A DNA stretch of 64,000 bases from Struthio camelus (taxonomy: Eukaryota; Chordata; Aves; Struthioniformes; Struthionidae): the NCBI RefSeq assembly GCF_040807025.1, contig NC_090946.1, forward strand, positions 3,762,001-3,826,000, written 5' to 3'. A model generated the notes under the pieces. It had not been told where the DNA came from. It saw only the letters and a program-made list of their open reading frames with translations, and ran no database searches. Below, piece by piece: positions 30,848 through 46,521 of this stretch. The translations under genes were made by a program, and so were the position numbers. Within the stretch, counting starts at the first letter, position 1. Each line of letters opens with the position of its first letter.

Positions 30848-32592
30848 TTACACCCTGTGTTTCAGGAAGAACTTGCCCCAGTAGCGTCCCTTGAACCTCA
30901 GGTCGTAGGGGCTGAGGTACTTGCGCATCCCCAGCATGTTGGCTGTGATGATGCGCTCGAAGGTCCAGGGGTTCTGGTTGTTGAGCTGCTTCTCCTCCTC
31001 CTCCTTCTGCATGCGCTGGAGCGTGTCGCGGCTGACGGCCACCGCAGGGAAGGGCAGCTTCCTGGCCACCTGCGTGAGGAAGTGTTTCACCTCCCCAAAC
31101 TCGCAGCGCCCACCCACCTCGACGACCAGGCGCCCGCTCTTCACTGCTGTCACGTAGTGGTCGATGGGTCCTTTGCCGCCCCCCATGCGGTGCCCCAGGC
31201 TCTTCCGGGTGATGGGCTTGTAGGGGGCTGGCACGCGCCACACAGCAAACATGGTCTTGGGGTCCATGCAGCGGCCGATGGTCAGGCGGATCATCTCAAA
31301 GTGGCCCCAGTGGAGATAACCACCCCCCAAGGCCTGCGGGAGGAAAAGGAGGAGGCACATCAGGGACCAAAACACTCACAGGGGCATGAGGGGTGCAAAT
31401 ACATGACCTGCTTCTGCCACGTTAGTAGCTGTCTCTTCTCCCTTTTGCTTTTGGGTGGGAGCAGCCTCATTTAAGAGGTTTCAGAGTTGCCTTTCAAATC
31501 TGATTTAGGCAGTACGTTCCTTACCCTGTCACCAGAGAGGAACTGCAGGTCCCTGCTGGCAGAGGGAGGCCAGATAACTTGGGAAATTCAGCTTTTCAGA
31601 GCCTAGTTCTGGCTCTGAGAAGGGCTGATCTGGTACTGGCTCCCTCCCTTGGCTCGTTTCTTCAAAGAGCGCTGGCCGTTTTGCTGCCTGCAGGAGGGCT
31701 CAGCGCCACATGGGGGATCTCCAGCCCGGGACCTGCTGGCACCAGAACAGGCTGCAGGACAAGTGGCCGGAGTAAACCTGCGGACCTGCGACCGCTTCTC
31801 CAGCCCCAACCTCGGTCGCAGTCGGGTGGGCAAGCAAGATATTCCCACGCAGAGCCCGTTGGAGCCTGTGGAGCAGGACCTCTTGCCACTTGCTCTGGCT
31901 GCAGCCACAGCCGAATCCTGCCCCTGGGGTCCAGAGCTTGCACGGAGCCAGCTCTGCTGGTTTTGGGAGGGTGCAAGCCACCCTGGGGCAGCCCCGTGAC
32001 CTGCCTCGGGCTGTGCCCTCCCCACGCCTGCGCCTTGCCCCCCTCGGAGGCACCAGGCCGCCGCGCTCACCAGGATGCCGTACTGCCCCTGGCTGAACTC
32101 GGTGGCCTCGCTGGACGGGCCGCGGATGTCACGCAGCCTCCGGGGCTCCCGCCTCACTTTGGGCACCGCGGGGACCTTGTCCATGAACTTCAGCTTGGGC
32201 CTCTCCGGCAAGGTGACATCTGGCAGGGGAGAGACGCGCCAAGGTCACCGCAGGCTCGGCCGGCCCCGGCCGCGCCGGCGACGCCGCCGAGCTCGGGGAA
32301 GCGACGCCAGCCCGGCGGAGGGGCCCGCGCCCCGCTTACCGCTGTAGTCCGGGGGCAGCACGTACTTCTTGAGGCCGGCCCGGGGGACCAGGGTGCCGCC
32401 GGGACCTGGCGGGCAGGAGGAGAGCACTCAGACAGGGCTCGGGCCCCCTCCCCGTCCAGCCTCCCCCCGCCTCTGAGCAGCACCCCCCGCCCCGCAAAGG
32501 GCAGTGAGGACCCCGGCGTCCCGCTCGCCCCCGGCTCGCCCCCGCCCCTGACCTCCGCCGGCCGCCAGCGGCCGCCCCAGCCGCTGCCACAT
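30848..32592 (-). CDS. MRPL16: Mitochondrial ribosomal protein uL16m
   Basis: Large-subunit mitoribosome protein near the peptidyl-transferase centre. Coding exons: 32592-32553, 32405-32340, 32219-32071, 31333-30848; they sum to 741 nt, 246 aa, against 251 in human. The N-terminus [13 protein letters not shown] is Arg-containing and lacks acidic residues, as expected of a mitochondrial targeting peptide. The L16 core includes [36 protein letters not shown] and NPWTFERI, ending FLKHRV. The start at 32592 was chosen because it gives the phase needed by exon 2 and a human-like MWxLL N-terminus. A more upstream ATG at 32635 is out of frame although it sits in a perfect TISU motif. Confidence 0.95.
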
Positions 32593-32964: not shown

Positions 32965-35006
32965 TCAGTAGGTGCTGAAGACGGCCTGGATGTGCTCCCC
33001 GTCCCGCGGCTCGTAGGCGTCGACGCCTGGGCAAGGGCACGGCGTGAGGCGGCGGCACGGCGGGCCCCCCGCCCCGGCCCCGGCCCCAGCCCCCCACCTT
33101 GGTCCAGGGCGTCCTTGCCGCTCAGCAGCCGCCAGTAGGTCTTGTCGGCGGCGCTGGCGGCCAGGCCGTGGATGGAGACCACCATGGCGCCCCAGGACGT
33201 CGCCTCGGTCTGGAAGCTGCCGCGGAGAGGCAGCGGAGGGAGGGCGGCTCGGAGGGGGTGTCCCCCCCCCAACTGCCGCCGGCTGCCCCCTCCGGCCGCG
33301 GGGCCTCACCTGAAGCGAGCGGGGTCCTGCTCCTGGGCCGCCCGCAGCACGGCCAGCAGCACGGAGCCGGCGGGGACCTGCACCCGGGTGGTGTAGTTGA
33401 AGTGGGCTCCCCGCAGCTCGTTGACGACGGAGTAATACACCGTGATGAGGGAGGCTGCGAGGGGTGGGTTGGGCGCCTCGTTAGTTCGGGAAGAGCCTGT
33501 CGGCGTGGAGCGTGGCAGGGATGGGGCCGAGGGTTGTCACCCCCACCCCTTGGTGGGGACACCATGGTGGACATCACGGGGGGCGGGGAACACCCAACCT
33601 CGGTCAGCCCTGGCCGTGCGCCCTCGAGCTGGGGACCGCGTGGTGCTCGTGGCGGCGGTGGCGGCAGCGGTGGCGGTGGTGGCGGCGGCAGCAGCAGCGG
33701 CGCAGTCCAGGCCGGCGGCATCCAGGTACGTCCTGCCCAGCAGGGCGGGCAGCACCTGGGCGATGGCCACGGGCTGCTGGAATTGGTGCTGGAGCACCAC
33801 CGAGAAGGCCTGGGCGCAGTCCCACTCCCGGGGGGCATAAAATGCTGCCGTGGCGGTGAGTGCCTGCGGGGGGCAAGCGTGAGGGGCTGCGGGGGCGCGG
33901 GTGGCTGGGCCGCCCCTGGCGCGGCCAGCTCCCCCCTACCTGCAGGGCTAGCCCCATGCTGTAGATGTTCCCGATCAAGCCGTTCCCCTGCTCCTGCTCA
34001 TCCAGGAAGGTGTTGGCCACCTCCGTCACCGCGTCCCGGAGAAGGTCCCGCACCTCGCTGAGGCCCGCCGCGGCCGCCTGGCCGTAGGCGCAAGTCAGCG
34101 CCAGCGCTGCCACAGCGCGGGTGTCTGCAAGGCCCTGGCATCAGCCGGCTGCCCCACGGCCGGGGGACGGAGGAGGTCGTGGGGCTGGCGAAGCGTCTTA
34201 CCCACGGAGAGCCCGCTCTGGGGGCTCAGCACCTCCTTGGCCAGGATGACGGCAGCCACCTCGTAGCTACCCGTCCCCTCCAGGCACAGTGCCAGGACAT
34301 CCAGGCTGACCTGGTAAAACGTGGTCTGCGGCGTGTCCTCGACCTCTGCAAAGCAGCGGGGCGCCGTGAGCCAGCGGCAAGGGGGACGCAGCGCCCCAGG
34401 AGGGCTCATGGCCATCCCCTCCCTGCCGTACCGAGGTAGGCCACCTCCTTGTCCGTCTTCTCCTGCAGCAGGCGGAGCAGGTCGACGGTGTGCCCCAGGG
34501 CCTGGACCTGCCGGGGGCTCTGGCAGGAGGAGAGGAAGGCGAGCGTGTACAGCGCCAGCTCCCCCGACGTCATATCTGCGGGGACAGAGAGCAGCCGGCA
34601 GTGCGGGCCCCAGGGACGCGGCCGAGGTGGGCACCCCCGGGCCCCCACCTACCCTTTGGGGCCCTCTCCACCGCTGCCTCCTTTAGCTGCTGGAGCAGCA
34701 GCTTGCAGCTGCTGCTGTCAGCGGCCCCGGCCAGGTTCAGCGCCAGCAGGACGCTGGGGTCGGGTGGCTCGTCCACGCCGGCAGAGCCCTCCAGGCGCTG
34801 CAGCATCCGGGAGACGGCGTCGTGCGGCGCAGCTGGAAGGAGCACGGTCGGACACCCCACAGGACGTCACCGGCAGAGCCCCGCGGGCTGCCCCGGCAGG
34901 TCCCGCGGCGGGACTGACACTCACCGCAACCGTCCGCGGCGGCGGGCGGCACCCAGCTGCCCGCCAGCCCCAGCAGGGCAACGACACCGAGGGCCGCGCA
35001 GAGCAT
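32965..35006 (-). CDS. CBLIF: Cobalamin-binding intrinsic factor/transcobalamin-1-like
   Basis: Secreted vitamin B12 carrier. Coding exons: 35006-34925, 34832-34653, 34575-34432, 34345-34202, 34124-33940, 33863 to about 33599, 33454-33310, 33216-33098, 33026-32965. With the 33599 donor the frame sums to 441 aa (human CBLIF 417, TCN1 433). A signal peptide (MLCAALGVVALLGLAGSW) precedes the alpha/alpha-barrel repeats (GELALYTLAFLSSC, SLDVLALCLEG, AVAALALTCAYG, NGLIGNIYSMGLALQ) and the C-terminal beta domain (SLITVYYSVVNELRG, ATSWGAMVVSIHG, KTYWRLLSG). The linker between the domains is an Ala/Thr-rich run coded by GCC/ACC triplets. The donor of the sixth exon is unclear: 33599, 33578 and 33563 all fit the phase. 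Choice between CBLIF and TCN1 rests on position next to MRPL16. Confidence 0.88.
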
Positions 35007-35308: not shown

Positions 35309-35608
35309 CTGTAAGGAAAAGTGGCCTGCTGTTGTAGAGGCAGGTTTGGCAGGGGGACAGAAATGCAGGGTTGGTGCAGAAAGCCACCAGTGCATGTTTG
35401 TGCATGCACGCACATGCATGCAGCATCCCCCCCCTCCCCAGGGCAGGGCCCTGACTTACCCCCCCGGGAGGAGCAGGGCTCTGCGGGATGGGTCCCAGCT
35501 GGGTGCAGGCTTGCAGGGGCTCCCATTGGGAGAGCTGTGGCCACCTGACTGCGGCCCCAGGTGTAAAAGCAGTTGGGGGAGGGCTGCTCATCTTCCTCTT
35601 TGCTCACG

Positions 35609-38275
35609 ATGAAGGTTCTGGGGAGGAGGTGGCTGCTCCTCCTTCTTGCTAGTGCTTGGGCCCAAAATGCCCTGGGTAAGGGGCTGGGGAGGGGCTGATC
35701 GTTGGGGGTGAGAGGGGGGTGCTGGGGCAGCAGTCCTGTGCTGGCTGACCAGCTGGCTGGGTCCCTCTGCCCTGGGCAGGGCTGTTTGCAGCAGGGCTGC
35801 AGGTGTGGGATGTGGTGCTGGGGAGGCTGAGCACTGACTCTCCCTGTCCTGGGCTGGTGGTGCTGAGTCCAGCAGTGCCCATCCTGCCTGTTTCAGCCTC
35901 CCCGAGCCCCACTCCTGGCCCTGCGGCAGTCACAATGGCACGTGGTGGCTCACAGCTCAGTGGCACGGTGCTGCCTGCCCTCCTGGGCAGCAGCGAGCTG
36001 AGGCTGGGGGCTGGCTGCCTGGTGACTGCCATCAATGGAGACCGGCACCCACTGGAGCACCCTGCCATGGAGGTGAGATGCCTGGGGAGGGTGTCCCTGC
36101 AGAGCTGGTGTGGGGTGGGCACGGGGCTATGTTTAAGAGGATAAACAGGGGGAATAGGCTCGGGGCACCCTGGGTTGGAAGCAGGGAAGGAAACTGTGGG
36201 ACTGGCCCTTTTGGGTCCCTGACAGCTGGGCTGCTGGTGCCAGCTGTTCCAAGCACCCGGTGGGATTACCTTCCCCTCTGCACATACCCGAAAAAGCATT
36301 TGCTGATTAGCCTGAGCGGAAATGCTAGCTTTCCTCATAACTGGGTGGTGAGCAGGGGTGCTGTTATCGATTCCCCTGAGATCTGGCACTGGCCTGGAGC
36401 TTTTGGGCTCTCAGGCAGGTGATGCTGCTCCTGATGGGGTTGCTGGGGACCTCCTGGGGCTGGGGAGATGGGTGGCCTGGGGACCTGCTCGCTGCTGGGG
36501 CAGCATCCCTGCAGGGGCTCTCGTCCGCTTGCTCTCCCTAGCTCTTCCCGGACCGTGACGCCCGCGCCAGCCCTGTCTCCCTCCCTGTGGACTGCCCCTA
36601 CCCCAGGTGAGGGGACGCCCGGGACCCTGGGTGCCAAGCCTGCTGGCCTGCACAGGGAGGGTGCATCCGATCGGCACCCGGGAGCCCCGCAGTGGATGCT
36701 CAAGGGTGCTCTGTGTTGCAGGAGGGATGTGTCTTCTGGGACCAGCCAGCCCACCTGGGTGCCCTTGGTCTCCACTGTGTCCAAGCACAGACGCCTGCGC
36801 TTCGCCCTGGAGTTGTATGACAGTGAGTGGCCAAGACCTCCCCCTCGCCCCGCAGCAGTGCGGGAACCAGGGCAGGATGGTCCTGTGGGTGGGCAGCACG
36901 TGGGGCAGCCACCGCCGCCTGCCCCCCAGGTGCCTGGTCCTCCCGCCTGCGCCAGCCCACGTATTCCCGGGGTGACCTGATCCACGTTGAGGCCTCGGTG
37001 CGCGCCGGCCCCCGCCTGCCCTTGCGCGTCTTCGTGGACGAGTGTGTGGCCAGCCCCAGCGTGGCCTCGCCGGTCATGTACCCGATCATCGCAGACAACG
37101 GGTGAGGGCCGGGGCTGGGTAGCGCGGCCGTGGCTCCAGGGGGGTCTCTGCTGCCCCCACATCGCTGCAGAGCTGGGCTCACCCCCTGCCTCCCCGTCCC
37201 TCCAGGTGCTTGGTGGATGGGCAGCTCGGGCGCTCCCGCTTCCTCTCCCCACGGCGCGGCCGCTCCCTGCGCTTCCAGCTGGACACCTTTGTCTTCCCGA
37301 ACGCCTCCAGCAGCCAGGTCGGTGCCGCAGGGTGATGTCCGCTTGCCAGCACGGGGACGGGATGCCCTGTCCCCAGAGGAGAGATGTGGGGTGGCCTCTT
37401 GCTGAGGTGCATTGGGGCCTTTCCTGGTCCCAGCAGTGGTCCAGGAGGATGCCTGTCCCTGCAGATCTACCTCCGCTGTCACCTGAAGGCCGTAGCACAC
37501 AAGGCTGGCGGCGAGTCCAGCAGAGCCTGCTCGTATGACCGCGACACAGCCACCTGGCACTCCCCGGATGGGGCCAACTGCTCGTGTTGCGGCGCTCCAG
37601 CCGGCTGCGGGGGCCGGCGGCAGCGCCGGGGGGCTGGTGGCAGAGGTGAGAGCCGTGCCTGGGGCCAGGAGCCCTTCTGTGGGCATGCCTAGGCCCCATG
37701 GGGGGGGGGCATGGCCAGCCTGGCCCACGCTGCAGCATCTGGCGGGTTTCCCCTTGCAGGGCTCCTGGGGGAAACCAGCGCCCACCTCGGCCCCCTGCGG
37801 CTGCTCCTGGCTTGGCCCAGTTCGTCACCAGAGCCAAGCACGTCGCCGGAGCCGGGCACGCCACTGCTGCGCCGCCCCTCGGCCCCCGTGGTCAGAGGGG
37901 AGAGGAGGGACTCGGGTGAGTGCGAGCACCCCCTGGGGCACCCGCTGCCCTGAACCAGGGGATGCCCTGAGCCCCCCTGCACAGCCCCCCTGGCATGGGG
38001 GAGACGCTGTTTTCTGGTCGCCCTCACGGCCCCGCACTGCTATGTCTCCTGCAGGGCTGGCTCTCCCGGCGCCCGGCCCCACGCTGGCCATGGTGGCCAT
38101 GGGCTCCATCCTGGCTGCCGTGGGCATGCTGGGCTGCTACTGCTCCGTGAGGCGCGGGCGCCAGGAGGGTGCTCCCGATGAGCTCCATGGCATGGCCATG
38201 GCACCCACCACATCTGGCCCTGGGAACGCTGAGCCGGGGGCGCCTGCTGCTCCCGGAAACCCCAGCATGGTGTGA
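35609..38275 (+). CDS. ZP3-like zona pellucida protein, short ZP-N half
   Basis: Predicted egg-coat glycoprotein, 455 aa. Exons: 35609-35675, 35780-36072, 36542-36606, 36722-36822, 36930-37101, 37206-37317, 37465-37645, 37760-37915, 38055-38275. Exon 1 is a signal peptide (MKVLGRRWLLLLLASAWA). The ZP-C half is clearly ZP3 type: VDCPYPRR, TWVPLVSTVS, PLRVFVDECVASPS, NGCLVDG, LDTFVFPNASSSQIYLRCHLKAV and a CSCCGAPAGC cluster. A furin-type site RRQRR follows, then a membrane anchor (MVAMGSILAAVGMLGCYC) and a short tail. The ZP-N half is reduced: the region corresponding to the human ZP3 stretch around LHECG is absent, and the first Cys of the domain is replaced. It diverges from the CBLIF-like gene. 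Confidence 0.85.
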
Positions 38276-38290: not shown

Positions 38291-38296
38291 AATAAA
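38291..38296 (+). terminator. ZP3-like poly(A) signal AATAAA
   Basis: Hexamer 15 bp after the stop codon, implying a very short 3' UTR. Very short 3' UTRs are also typical of egg-coat ZP genes. Confidence 0.8.
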
Positions 38297-40170: not shown

Positions 40171-42346
40171 ATGCCGCTCACCACCTACCCAGTCACCCCT
40201 TGGAGTGGCCCACAGCCAGCCCAGGCTGGGCGCACCGCGTCGGCCAAGTGCTGGGTAATGGGGGTAAGTCATGGCGGGCCAGTTGCCTTCCCCCGGCATT
40301 GCTAGCCCCTGTAGGCAACCCATATCCTTTAAGGGGCTGCTCATGTGCCTCTTAGCCCAGCATGGAAGGCTTTGGCCAGGCCTGAGGCTTATGGCTGTTG
40401 TGGTTGTGCTCATCCCCTTTGGGTGTTTCCTTCCATGCAGGTGGTACAGTTCTTCATCGGGCTCGTGCTCCTCGGGCTTGGTGGCACCTTGTTCTTTGCT
40501 TCCAGCAACTACAACTTATGCATTGCCTACTGGTACCCGCTCTGGGGGGCTGCGCTGGTAAGTAGGAAACTGGGAAGGCTTTGCTGGAGGAACTGGGGAG
40601 GCAAGACTTTGGCACATATTCTTCTCTTCCTTCCAGTATGTCATCTCTGGCTATTACAACTCTTCCATTGCTACAGATTCTTCAAGATGTCTGGTGAGTG
40701 GGAGAGGGGTGGAGGTCTCTGCCTGCTCCAGTAACCCCAGGGCAGTGGCTGTTCCCCTCCCCAAAGGGCCCCTCTGAGTCCCAGCTGGGGCCCCTCAGAG
40801 GTGGGAAGAGGTTAGAGCTGCATGACAAGGCCAGAGCCTAGACTAACTCCGGCTCGGTCTCAACCAAACTGCTAGTGTTGGCATGGCTAACCCTGCCTCT
40901 GCCCCTCTAGGTGTCCTGCAGTGCTGTTTCCAGCTGCCTCAGCTTCTTTGCCTCACTGATAGGAACTGTGCTTCTGGCCCGGGACCTGGTGAAGGTTTCC
41001 TTCCTCTACCCGCTCCCAGGCAGCTCTACGGTGTTCCTGTACTGCGAGAGGAGCCACCTCCCGGCTGAGCACTGTCGCAGGTTCCTGACCTATGAGCTGG
41101 TGAGCTGGCGCGTGCTGGCAGGATGGGCAGGGGAGCCAGTGTGCAGGTGCAGACAACACTGGGGCCAAGCTAGTGATGCAGTCCCCTGTTGTCCCCACTG
41201 AGAGCGGGGCTGGCAGCATTTGGGCTCCCCAGGATTGCTTAACCCCCTACCCCGGGACAGGCTGGGGGCTGACCTGCTGAGAGCAGCTCTGCAGAGAAGG
41301 ACCTGGGAGTTAACAAGTTGACCATGAGTCAGCAATGTGCCCTTGTGGCCAAGAAGGCCAATGGCATCCTGGGCTGCATTAGGCAAGGCATTGTCAGGGA
41401 GGTGATCCTGCCCTTCTACTCAGCCCTGGTAAGGCCATGTCTGGGGTGCTGTGTGCTGTTCTGGACTCCCTAATACAAGAGAGACACGGAGCTCCTGGAG
41501 TGAGTCCAGCAAAGGGCTCCTAAGATGATGAAGGGACTGGGGCATCTCTCATCTGAGGAAAGGCTGGGAGAGCTGGGCCTGTTCAGCCTGGAGAGAAGAC
41601 AGAGAGAGGATCTGATAAGTATCTGAGTATAAGTGTATAAGTATCTGAGGGAAGGGCGTCAAGAGGATGGGGCCAGACTCTTCAGCAGTGTTCAGTGATA
41701 GGATGAGAGGCAACGGGCGCAAACTGAAACACAGGAAGGTCTGTCTGAACATAATGAAAAATTTTTTCCTGTGAGGGTGACTGAGCACTGGAGCAGGTTG
41801 CCCAGAAAGGTTGTGGCATCTCCATCCTTGGAGATGATCAAAAGCCATCTGGATGTGGTCCTGGGTGACCTGCTGTAGGTGACCCAGCTTGAGCAGGGGG
41901 TTGGACTAGAGGAACTCCAGAGGTCCCTGCCAAGCTCAACTGTTCTGTGACTGTCTCCTTCCTGTCGTCTTTGCACAGGGGTTGCTGTTGCTGATGATTA
42001 TCTTCACTGTTTTTGAGATGACTATCTCTTCCATCATGTTCAGCTACAGCCTGGTAAGGATGCCTGCTCTGTCCCTAGCAGCTAGAGGCAGCACCCATCG
42101 GGGGGAGAGGAGGGCTGTGTGTGTGTGTGTGTGTGGCGGCAAGGGGGGCAGCAGGGACTAACATCCTCCTGGCTCTCGATGCAGAAAGACAGAAGCTTGG
42201 ACCATCAGCCCACGCAGCAGGCTTTCCCATTGCTGGAAGCTTGGCCTCAGCAAGATGTGGCTGGGACCAGTCCCTTTCAGCTGTCCTATGGGCTCCCGCC
42301 ACCATACACCAAAGAAAACTTCCCCTCAGAGCACCAGGACGTTTGA
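40171..42346 (+). CDS. MS4A-family tetraspan protein (gene A)
   Basis: Four-pass membrane protein of the MS4A/CD20 family, 230 aa. Exons: 40171-40263, 40441-40557, 40637-40693, 40911-41099, 41979-42053, 42185-42346, all phase 0. The first coding exon is short ([13 protein letters not shown]... to SAKCWVMG) and was found by the family rule that this exon ends in a V-M/L-G motif directly before TM1. TM1: [21 protein letters not shown]2: [18 protein letters not shown]3: [15 protein letters not shown]. An unusually long Cys-containing loop ([17 protein letters not shown]) precedes TM4: [21 protein letters not shown]. The tail is Pro/Gln-rich and ends [16 protein letters not shown]. The exact mammalian orthologue is not recognised. 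A CR1 LINE lies in the intron before the TM4 exon. No poly(A) hexamer was seen close by. Confidence 0.85.
41290..41955 (+). mobile_element. CR1 LINE fragment, sense, 3' end retained
   Basis: Matches the 3' part of avian CR1: a reverse-transcriptase end region (AATGGCATCCTGGGCTGCAT, TACTCAGCCCTGGTAAGGCC) and the 3' terminal signature GGTTGGACTAGAGGAACTCC. The 5' part is missing, as is usual for CR1. It lies in MS4A gene A, in the intron before the TM4 exon, and its end is about 25 bp from the splice acceptor at 41978. Confidence 0.9.
42117..42134. repeat. Short (TG)n microsatellite
   Basis: Nine TG dinucleotides in the last intron of MS4A gene A, about 50 bp before the final exon. Confidence 0.8.
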
Positions 42347-44500: not shown

Positions 44501-46521
44501 ATGCAAGGCATGGGGACCTTGCGGCTGGGCAGCCGCTCGGTGATGTACACGGCTGAGACGCTGCCCAAGGGCAAGAACCGAGTGATGGGGGTGAGTCGGG
44601 GAAGGGGGCTGGGGCGGGGGTCAGAGAGCTGCCGGCTGGTGCCCCCAACTCCTTGGCGGGGACAGGACGCGCTTTCCTGGCCCGTCTGGGGGCTGCTAGG
44701 AGGTGATGCTCAGCCCCTCCACCCCCGTTGTCGAGGCTGGAGCTGGTCATGGAGGACCTCATCCTGGAGGGCTGGCAAGAGATGGGGGGGATGCAATGGG
44801 GGGGGCTGCACCCGAGGGATCCCCTGTCCTTTCTGGAGAGCTGCAAGGGAGGGGGGCTGAGATGAGCCCCTGGGAATGGGGCTGCAGCGACATCCCCTCC
44901 AGCCTGGGCTCCCCCGTCACTGCAGCACTGCCAAGTGGGGGCTGCTCCAGGGCAGCTCAGCTGGGGGATGCGGGGGGAGACCAGTGAGGTGAAGGGATGT
45001 CCGGCCAAGCACCCCTGTCTCCGTGCTGGGGGGTGTGTGAACGTGCCCCACTTTCTCTCCCTGCCTCCTCCCTCAGACCATTCAGATCATGACCGGCTTC
45101 ATGCACATCGGCTTCGGGATCGTCCTAACGACGCTCACCAACGTCTACACCTCCGTCTTCGTCATCGGCGAGATCCCCTTCCTGGGCGGCGTGTCTGTGC
45201 GTGACAGCAGGGCTGGTGGGGGGGATGCTCCCCGGGACCCCTAGGGCTCCCAGGATTCCCTAGCCTGCTGGGGACCGGGCACGTGGGGGGCTCAAGTTCA
45301 GTGGCTCAGTACAGTGAATTGCAGCAAAATGTAAGGACTAGCAGTCTATGAAAGCATCCGGCCCTTCTGCCTGCAAGGCGGGGGGGGTCCCCGTCCCTGG
45401 AAGAGCCACGGGAAAGCCAGTGCTCAGCCACGAGGCTGCGGTGGTGGGCGGCTGTTTAACGCCACCATGCCCAAGGGGATGTACAGCTGAGAGTGGGGTG
45501 GAGGGGCAGCGCTGTGGCCGACCGCCCGCCTTTCTCCCTCGGTGCAGTTCATCATCTCGGGCTGCCTGTCCATTGGAGCGGAGAAGAGCCCCACAGAGTG
45601 TGCGGTGAGTGTCCACGGCCTGTCACAGCGACAGGGTGGCTTGCCCGGTCCGGCTGGGAGCCGGGCGTCCCCGCCAAGCATGGGGAAAGGGCTTTTACCC
45701 CTGCGCCAAAACCCCTGCCCGTCTCCCCGTGGCCACAGGTGAAGGGCAGCCAGACCATGAACGTCATCAGTGCCATCTTCGCACTGCTGGGCATTGTTGC
45801 TTTCATCATAGACCTGAACCTGAACGGGCTTTACCGCTCCGGCTTTGACTACTACAGCTATCTCATCATGGTAAGCAGTAGCACAGCTGGCTCTGCTGTT
45901 TAGGACTGACTGGAGGTGGAGCTGTGAAACACTCACCCCCAAGATGTGGGGTGGGATCTGTGCTGCACTTCCACTGGGGCTTGGCAGCGCTGCAGATCCT
46001 CACCCTCCTGGCTGGGCGCTGCCGGGAGCAGAGCCAAAGGGGCTGAGGGTTGGCGAGCGTGCATGCCGGCGATGCTCACGGGCGCTTTCCCCCGGCCTGG
46101 AGCTCGCAGGGAACGGGATCTCCATCGTGCTGCTCATCTTCACCATCCTGGAGTTCTGCATTGCTGTTGCCACTGCGAATTTCTGGTGCCGGGCCACTCG
46201 CCTCAGCTCCAACGAGGTAGGTAGAGGTGGTGAAGCGAGCCTGAGCAGAAGCTTCTGGCCACGCAGGTCCCGACAGCGAGCTCCATCTCCTCCTCCCTCG
46301 CAGGCCATGCTGATCGTGCCCAGCACCACCCGGGCGGACCTGGCGGTGCCCCCGACGGACCTGCCCCAGCCGCCCAGCTACACTGAGGTGAGCTATGAGC
46401 CCAAGGAGTGGGTCAGCTGGGAGCGGAGCTGGGGTGCAGGGGGCCACGGGGCAGGCAGCTCCCAGAAGCAGCAGCCACCATTTCCTTCTTCTTCTTGCAG
46501 CTGGTTGCCCCGGATGTCTAG
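44501..46521 (+). CDS. MS4A-family tetraspan protein (gene B)
   Basis: Complete MS4A gene, 205 aa. Exons: 44501-44590, 45077-45196, 45548-45604, 45739-45870, 46103-46216, 46304-46387, 46501-46521, all phase 0. Cytoplasmic N-terminus MQGMGTLRLGSRSVMYTAET to KGKNRVMG. TM1: IQIMTGFMHIGFGIVLTTL. TM2: IPFLGGVSFIISGCLSIGAEK, crossing an exon border. TM3: MNVISAIFALLGIVAFIIDL. Extracellular loop GLYRSGFDYYSYLIM. TM4: ISIVLLIFTILEFCIAVATA. The tail has PPTDLPQPPSYTE, a PPxY-type motif common in MS4A tails, and ends LVAPDV. The acceptor at 46102 (CCTGGAG) was chosen over a nearer CAG because it keeps phase 0 and gives the conserved LAGNG start. The layout resembles mammalian MS4A4/8/12/15; the orthologue is not settled. 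Confidence 0.9.

Follow-up and report, generated by a model that had tools for sequence, protein, structure and literature searches.

The slot between a cobalamin-binder gene and CD20/MS4A-like exons holds a ZP3-like gene in the window analysed here, a stretch of DNA of 64,000 nucleotides. In human 11q12, where we take the gene order to be the same as in the window, the OOSP genes lie between TCN1 and MS4A. The locus raises the question of which kind of ZP protein this gene encodes, and whether it bears on the origin of the OOSP genes. On the basis of one sequence, we lean towards a diverged sauropsid (most likely avian) ZP3 paralogue, which would act mainly via its ZP-C half.

The gene order in the window is OSBP, PATL1 (weak), a syntaxin, MRPL16, an intrinsic-factor-like gene, the ZP gene and CD20/MS4A-like exons. 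Pfam searches matched an OSBP exon (3.2e-35) and STX3-like exons (syntaxin, 3.4e-25; SNARE, 1e-13). PATL1, between OSBP and the syntaxin, gave 0.00067, below the Pfam cut-off, and was otherwise recognised by eye. The matches flanking the slot are the following.

30860..31300, minus strand: MRPL16 exon (Ribosomal_L16; PF00252, 2.5e-21)
32965..35006, minus strand: cobalamin-binder gene (PF01122, 9.6e-64; exons joined by eye)
45074..46219, plus strand: CD20/MS4A-like exons (PF04103, 9.3e-8; three exons joined by eye)

The first-pass annotation had placed the ZP gene between MRPL16/cobalamin binder and MS4A, and this position was borne out, with the flanks matched by Pfam and PDB searches. Among solved structures, gastric intrinsic factor was the best match of the cobalamin-binder gene (at best 4.5e-60, 2pmv), ahead of transcobalamin 1 (1.7e-51) and transcobalamin 2 (at best 1e-28). 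Mammals carry both CBLIF and TCN1 where the window has one cobalamin-binder gene. The start codons of this gene (35006) and the ZP gene (35609) diverge and lie head to head ~600 bases apart, so the two genes may share a promoter region.

The ZP3-like gene consists of nine exons on the plus strand (35609-38275), which form a single open frame of 416 residues in an ab initio model with exon borders picked by eye. All eight introns are bounded by GT-AG, and the start at 35609 and the stop at 38275 assigned in the first reading were both exact. Exons 3 to 9 have a GC content at the third codon position like that of genes (0.77-0.92, compared with 0.61-0.75 in the introns). The features of the gene are listed below.

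35411, 35496, 35542, 35558 and 35570, plus strand: E-box CANNTG motifs, from a pattern scan, CANNTG being common by chance
35562..35569, plus strand: TATA-like TGTAAAAG, 47 bases upstream of the ATG, from a pattern scan
35609..35675, plus strand: exon 1, signal peptide MKVLGRRWLLLLLASAWA (by eye) and start of the mature chain
35897..36072, plus strand: exon 2, occupying the place of most of ZP-N, with ZP-N similarity undetectable
36542..36606, plus strand: exon 3, final ZP-N strand with cysteine 4 (RASPVSLPVDCPYPR)
36722..36822, plus strand: exon 4, linker and start of ZP-C
36930..37101, plus strand: exon 5, ZP-C with cysteine 5
37206..37317, plus strand: exon 6, ZP-C with cysteine 6
37465..37645, plus strand: exon 7, ZP-C cysteines 7 and 8, the ZP3 subdomain cysteines (CSCC...C) and the RQRR cleavage site
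37760..37915, plus strand: exon 8, AHLGPLRLLLA (by its place and motif a candidate external hydrophobic patch) and a spacer
38055..38275, plus strand: exon 9, transmembrane segment (residues ~353-371), short cytoplasmic tail and TGA stop
38291..38296, plus strand: AATAAA polyadenylation signal, beginning 16 bases past the stop

A very short 3' UTR is typical of ZP genes and is common to this gene. An example of a tryptic peptide predicted from the protein is VFVDECVASPSVASPVMYPIIADNGCLVDGQLGR.

The ZP-C half was readily recognised. A whole-protein Pfam search matched PF00100 with an E of 4.9e-20, the only other match being a chance one to a transposase HTH family (0.12, below its cut-off). A PDB search returned 3nk3 at E 2.5e-37, with residue 88, immediately ahead of the final ZP-N strand, as the first aligned position. 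ZP-C identity was 69/168 (41%) with the ZP3 of 3nk3 and 69/164 (42%) with 8bqu, compared with 84/172 (49%) between 3nk3 and 8bqu themselves. Seven ZP-C/subdomain cysteines (175, 195, 236, 253, 270, 272 and 273) align with 3nk3, the last three with its CNCC, so that the ZP3 subdomain cysteines past ZP-C are present. Cys 279, beyond the 3nk3-aligned part, is presumably the eighth. A furin-type site, RQRR, occupies residues 283-286. The membrane anchor corresponds to residues 353-371, where the hydrophobicity of the protein over 19 residues is highest.

Comparison with ZP3 (ZPC; a type I ZP protein; 3nk3, 8bqu) shows that ZP-C, the ZP3 subdomain cysteines, the cleavage site and the anchor are shared, but that ZP-N is unrecognisable save for its last strand, two of its four cysteines are gone, and ZP-C stands at only 41-42% identity. 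The description of the locus as a full ZP3-type gene with signal peptide, furin site and anchor was therefore upheld in part: the signal peptide (by eye), RQRR, the anchor and ZP-C are present, but ZP-N with four cysteines was unmatched in Pfam for the gene model used, in which exon 2 is uncertain.

The absence of a ZP-N match was examined against controls. The whole protein gave no match to PF23344 (ZP-N) at E up to 1, and the N-terminal part, with either a short or a long exon 2, matched no Pfam family at a limit of 10, at which the HMMER filters nevertheless discard most matches above ~0.1. A hybrid ZP3 control, built only in part from the letters of 3nk3, was matched in both domains, with ZP-N at 4.4e-15. 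Because ZP-C is still 41-42% identical to 3nk3 and 8bqu, we infer that an ordinary ZP-N should have been seen. The ZP-N region contains two cysteines (residues 63 and 99), as against the four that hold ZP-N together (PMC9154058, PMC1479692). Residue 99 corresponds to cysteine 4 of ZP-N, and residue 63 is tentatively placed.

The extent of the remaining ZP-N was estimated by alignment, with shuffled sequences for comparison. The N-terminal region together with exon 3 scored 69 against 3nk3 (shuffles: mean 26.0, sd 4.5, reached by 0/500), 47 against 3d4c (0/500) and 38 against 8bqu (19/500), and the alignment with 3nk3 continued upstream into the last part of exon 2 (TAINGDRHPLEHP). On its own, the exon 2 part scored 30, 23 and 22 against 3nk3, 3d4c and 8bqu; of 500 shuffles, 57 did as well for 3nk3, 245 for 3d4c and 374 for 8bqu. 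When the part before residue 87 was shuffled in the form with the short exon 2, the score was reached by 78, 485 and 659 of 1000 shuffles for the same three structures. A profile comparison with ZP-N gave a probability of 75% with exon 3 and 0.3% without it. Judged from these alignments, the region including exon 3 appears clearly ZP-N-related, and the exon 2 part alone does not. Set against the 49% shared by 3nk3 and 8bqu, the 41-42% identity of ZP-C indicates that the loss is specific to ZP-N, rather than a result of general divergence. Set beside a stand-alone ZP-C protein, the gene has a ZP-C and no detected ZP-N, yet the last ZP-N strand and Cys 4 are kept, with exon 2 uncertain.

We consider it unlikely that the gene encodes a full ZP3-type protein with a missed ZP-N exon, the first exons being different from those modelled, or lost or altered in the assembly. 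This alternative draws on exon 2, for which the model is weakest and least supported. A frame of 59 codons, the length of this exon, is expected to be open by chance in roughly one case out of three, and the GC of the exon by codon position (0.72/0.63/0.71) is a weak codon signature; the exon could thus be misread and the true N-terminus may differ. A second in-frame acceptor is present at 35779, from which exon 2 would begin at 35780, and the frame is kept either way, the short (176-base) and long (293-base) forms both being 2 modulo 3. The long form adds a cysteine and is by eye collinear with ZP-N, but was rejected as evidence of ZP-N because shuffles score equally well: when the residues ahead of position 87 were shuffled, the scores against 3nk3, 3d4c and 8bqu were reached by 255, 643 and 764 of 1000 shuffles. 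For the whole long form, 0/1000 shuffles reached the score against 3nk3, which is owing to exon 3, compared with 28/1000 against 3d4c and 220/1000 against 8bqu. The longer exon 2 thus gives no better ZP-N match, by Pfam or by shuffles. Skipping exon 2 entirely was also rejected, as it breaks the frame (67 bases, where the next exon needs phase 0).

A missed exon elsewhere in the window was sought with a ZP3 profile built from three sequences, which was run over 1716 six-frame stretches of at least 20 residues covering the whole window. Five stretches had E <1, all in the ZP3-like gene, and all five matches start at profile position 87 or later. The scan of the 64,000 nucleotides thus gave no ZP-N exon before profile position 87 (E <1), and no ZP-N other than that in exon 3. 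In leave-one-out controls, ZP-N pieces planted among the window stretches were recovered in 9/9 cases at 7e-8 to 4e-28 (first pieces, 1.1e-8 to 1.4e-15; second pieces, 6.9e-8 to 2.1e-10; both pieces joined, 2.1e-19 to 3.6e-28), and exon 3 (0.08 to 0.41) was the best-scoring stretch of the window itself. No ZP-like exon was seen by eye in the three plus-strand frames of 35420-36730, which cover introns 1 and 2 and the region just upstream. The window is also without any N, which argues against loss in the assembly.

Equally improbable, in our estimate, is that the gene is becoming a pseudogene that lost ZP-N to begin with and whose remainder is open by chance or because of its recent age. The domain lost, ZP-N, is held to be the half of egg-coat proteins that drives polymerisation, and the composition of exon 2 seems little constrained. 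Feng et al. 2018 reported ZP3.2 and ZP3.3 pseudogenes in four tetrapods (ZP3.2 in panda, cat and opossum; ZP3.3 in python; PMC6262864). Against decay, a frame of 416 codons would be open by chance with p ~0.00035 in DNA of the same composition, a rough value because the choice of exon borders is ignored. The GT-AG borders of all the introns, the ZP-C cysteines, the cleavage site and the anchor have likewise been kept.

As a diverged ZP3 paralogue, the gene would encode a secreted precursor with a signal peptide, intact ZP-C and ZP3 subdomain, a furin-type site and a membrane anchor, in which the ZP-N half would have decayed down to its last strand. The precursor would reach the cell surface like ZP3, be cut at RQRR and lose its tail. 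The protein would then join or cap egg-coat filaments by ZP-C contacts, not by ZP-N self-assembly. With ovary expression assumed, we infer a possible role in the egg coat or at the ovarian surface, exerted via ZP-C. A precedent for ZP-C-led function is LET-653 of C. elegans, in which ZP-C carries localisation and function (PMC7665627), and the nematode stand-alone ZP-C families provide a precedent for ZP-C alone (PMC7456536).

The nematode stand-alone proteins resemble the predicted ZP3-like protein in that ZP-C is kept and ZP-N lost, with a signal peptide in most, but they are generally described as lacking a cleavage site (PMC7456536), whereas the ZP3-like protein has RQRR. It differs from them also in its anchor, ZP3-type subdomain and remnant last ZP-N strand. 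In the literature passages drawn on here, the examples of stand-alone ZP-C proteins come from nematodes (PMC7456536, PMC7665627, PMC9154058), and none of the matches listed from the open-licence full-text literature describes, in its title or the opening of its abstract, a vertebrate ZP-C-only protein. A vertebrate ZP3 relative in which only ZP-N has been lost would offer a natural experiment on the role of ZP-C by itself.

Additional paralogues of ZP3 in Sauria are on record: Feng et al. 2018 describe several ZP3 subfamilies, with ZP3.3 in Sauria and Neopterygii (PMC6262864). The ZP3.2 and ZP3.3 subfamilies are extra ZP3 paralogues, as the ZP3-like gene would be, and it may be a member of one of them. 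A turkey egg-coat study names ZP1-4, ZPD and ZPAX (PMC8508634). No ZP gene in the cobalamin-binder/MS4A slot is described in the titles and abstract openings of the open-licence matches listed; the slot may figure in the figures or tables of Feng 2018.

The first-pass annotation had proposed that a ZP gene in the slot either gave rise to the mammalian OOSP genes or was replaced by them, a proposal that we regard as quite doubtful. It is favoured by the collinearity of the slot with the human order and by the relationship of OOSP and PLAC1 to ZP-N, these proteins being described as containing a four-cysteine ZP-N and no ZP-C (Jovine 2006, PMC1479692). Judged by that published description, the ZP3-like gene differs on both counts, with its ZP-C and without a recognisable four-cysteine ZP-N: OOSP1-3 and PLAC1 are ZP-related like it, but have ZP-N only, the opposite half (PMC1479692). 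Since opposite halves are kept, it is unlikely that OOSP descends directly from such a gene; as it stands, it cannot be the OOSP source, and only a common full-length ancestor could be. In addition, the HGNC is cited as grouping X-linked PLAC1 with OOSP (PMC7226750, PMC1479692), which places a member of the family outside the slot. The Oosp genes are ovary-enriched in the mouse and described as conserved across a variety of mammals (PMC7226750).

The common ancestor would be a full-length ZP3-type gene in the cobalamin-binder/MS4A slot of early amniotes, its ZP-N kept and multiplied in mammals as OOSP and its ZP-C kept as the bird gene. Such a split would fit the synteny and the published domain descriptions; we hold it to be very unlikely, and independent replacement at the slot is as compatible with the data. 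If the split were true, mammals and birds would each have retained a different half of a single egg-coat gene, and the bird gene would be a vertebrate near-stand-alone ZP-C egg protein. Should other sauropsids have a full-length gene in the slot, it would become possible to test directly how mammalian OOSP originated.

No ZP-N match indicative of an OOSP gene was found elsewhere in the 64,000-nt window. Mouse Oosp3 itself gave only E 1.2 in a published profile search (PMC1479692), so the missing match proves little. A PDB search with the ZP-N profile to E 10 returned no OOSP or PLAC1 structure; its four distinct sequences were three ZP3 and one unrelated enzyme at 0.27.

Two further parts of the window showed minor features. 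At 33639-33701, an exon of the cobalamin-binder gene runs into alanine/threonine repeats (GCC/ACC) past an LDC motif, which represent either a low-complexity linker or intron sequence. Downstream of the ZP gene, positions 41294-41431 match no Pfam family and are a probable CR1-like LINE fragment, which along with the short introns suggests an avian or other sauropsid genome. Groups of MS4A/CD20-like exons occur within 40435-62400 (at ~40.4, 45.1-46.2, 51.6-52.2 and 54.4 kb); one of five groups tested, that at 45-46 kb, passes the Pfam cut-off, and hydrophobic exons near 62 kb gave no Pfam match. A chicken MS4A gene with tandem units has been reported (PMC2826416).
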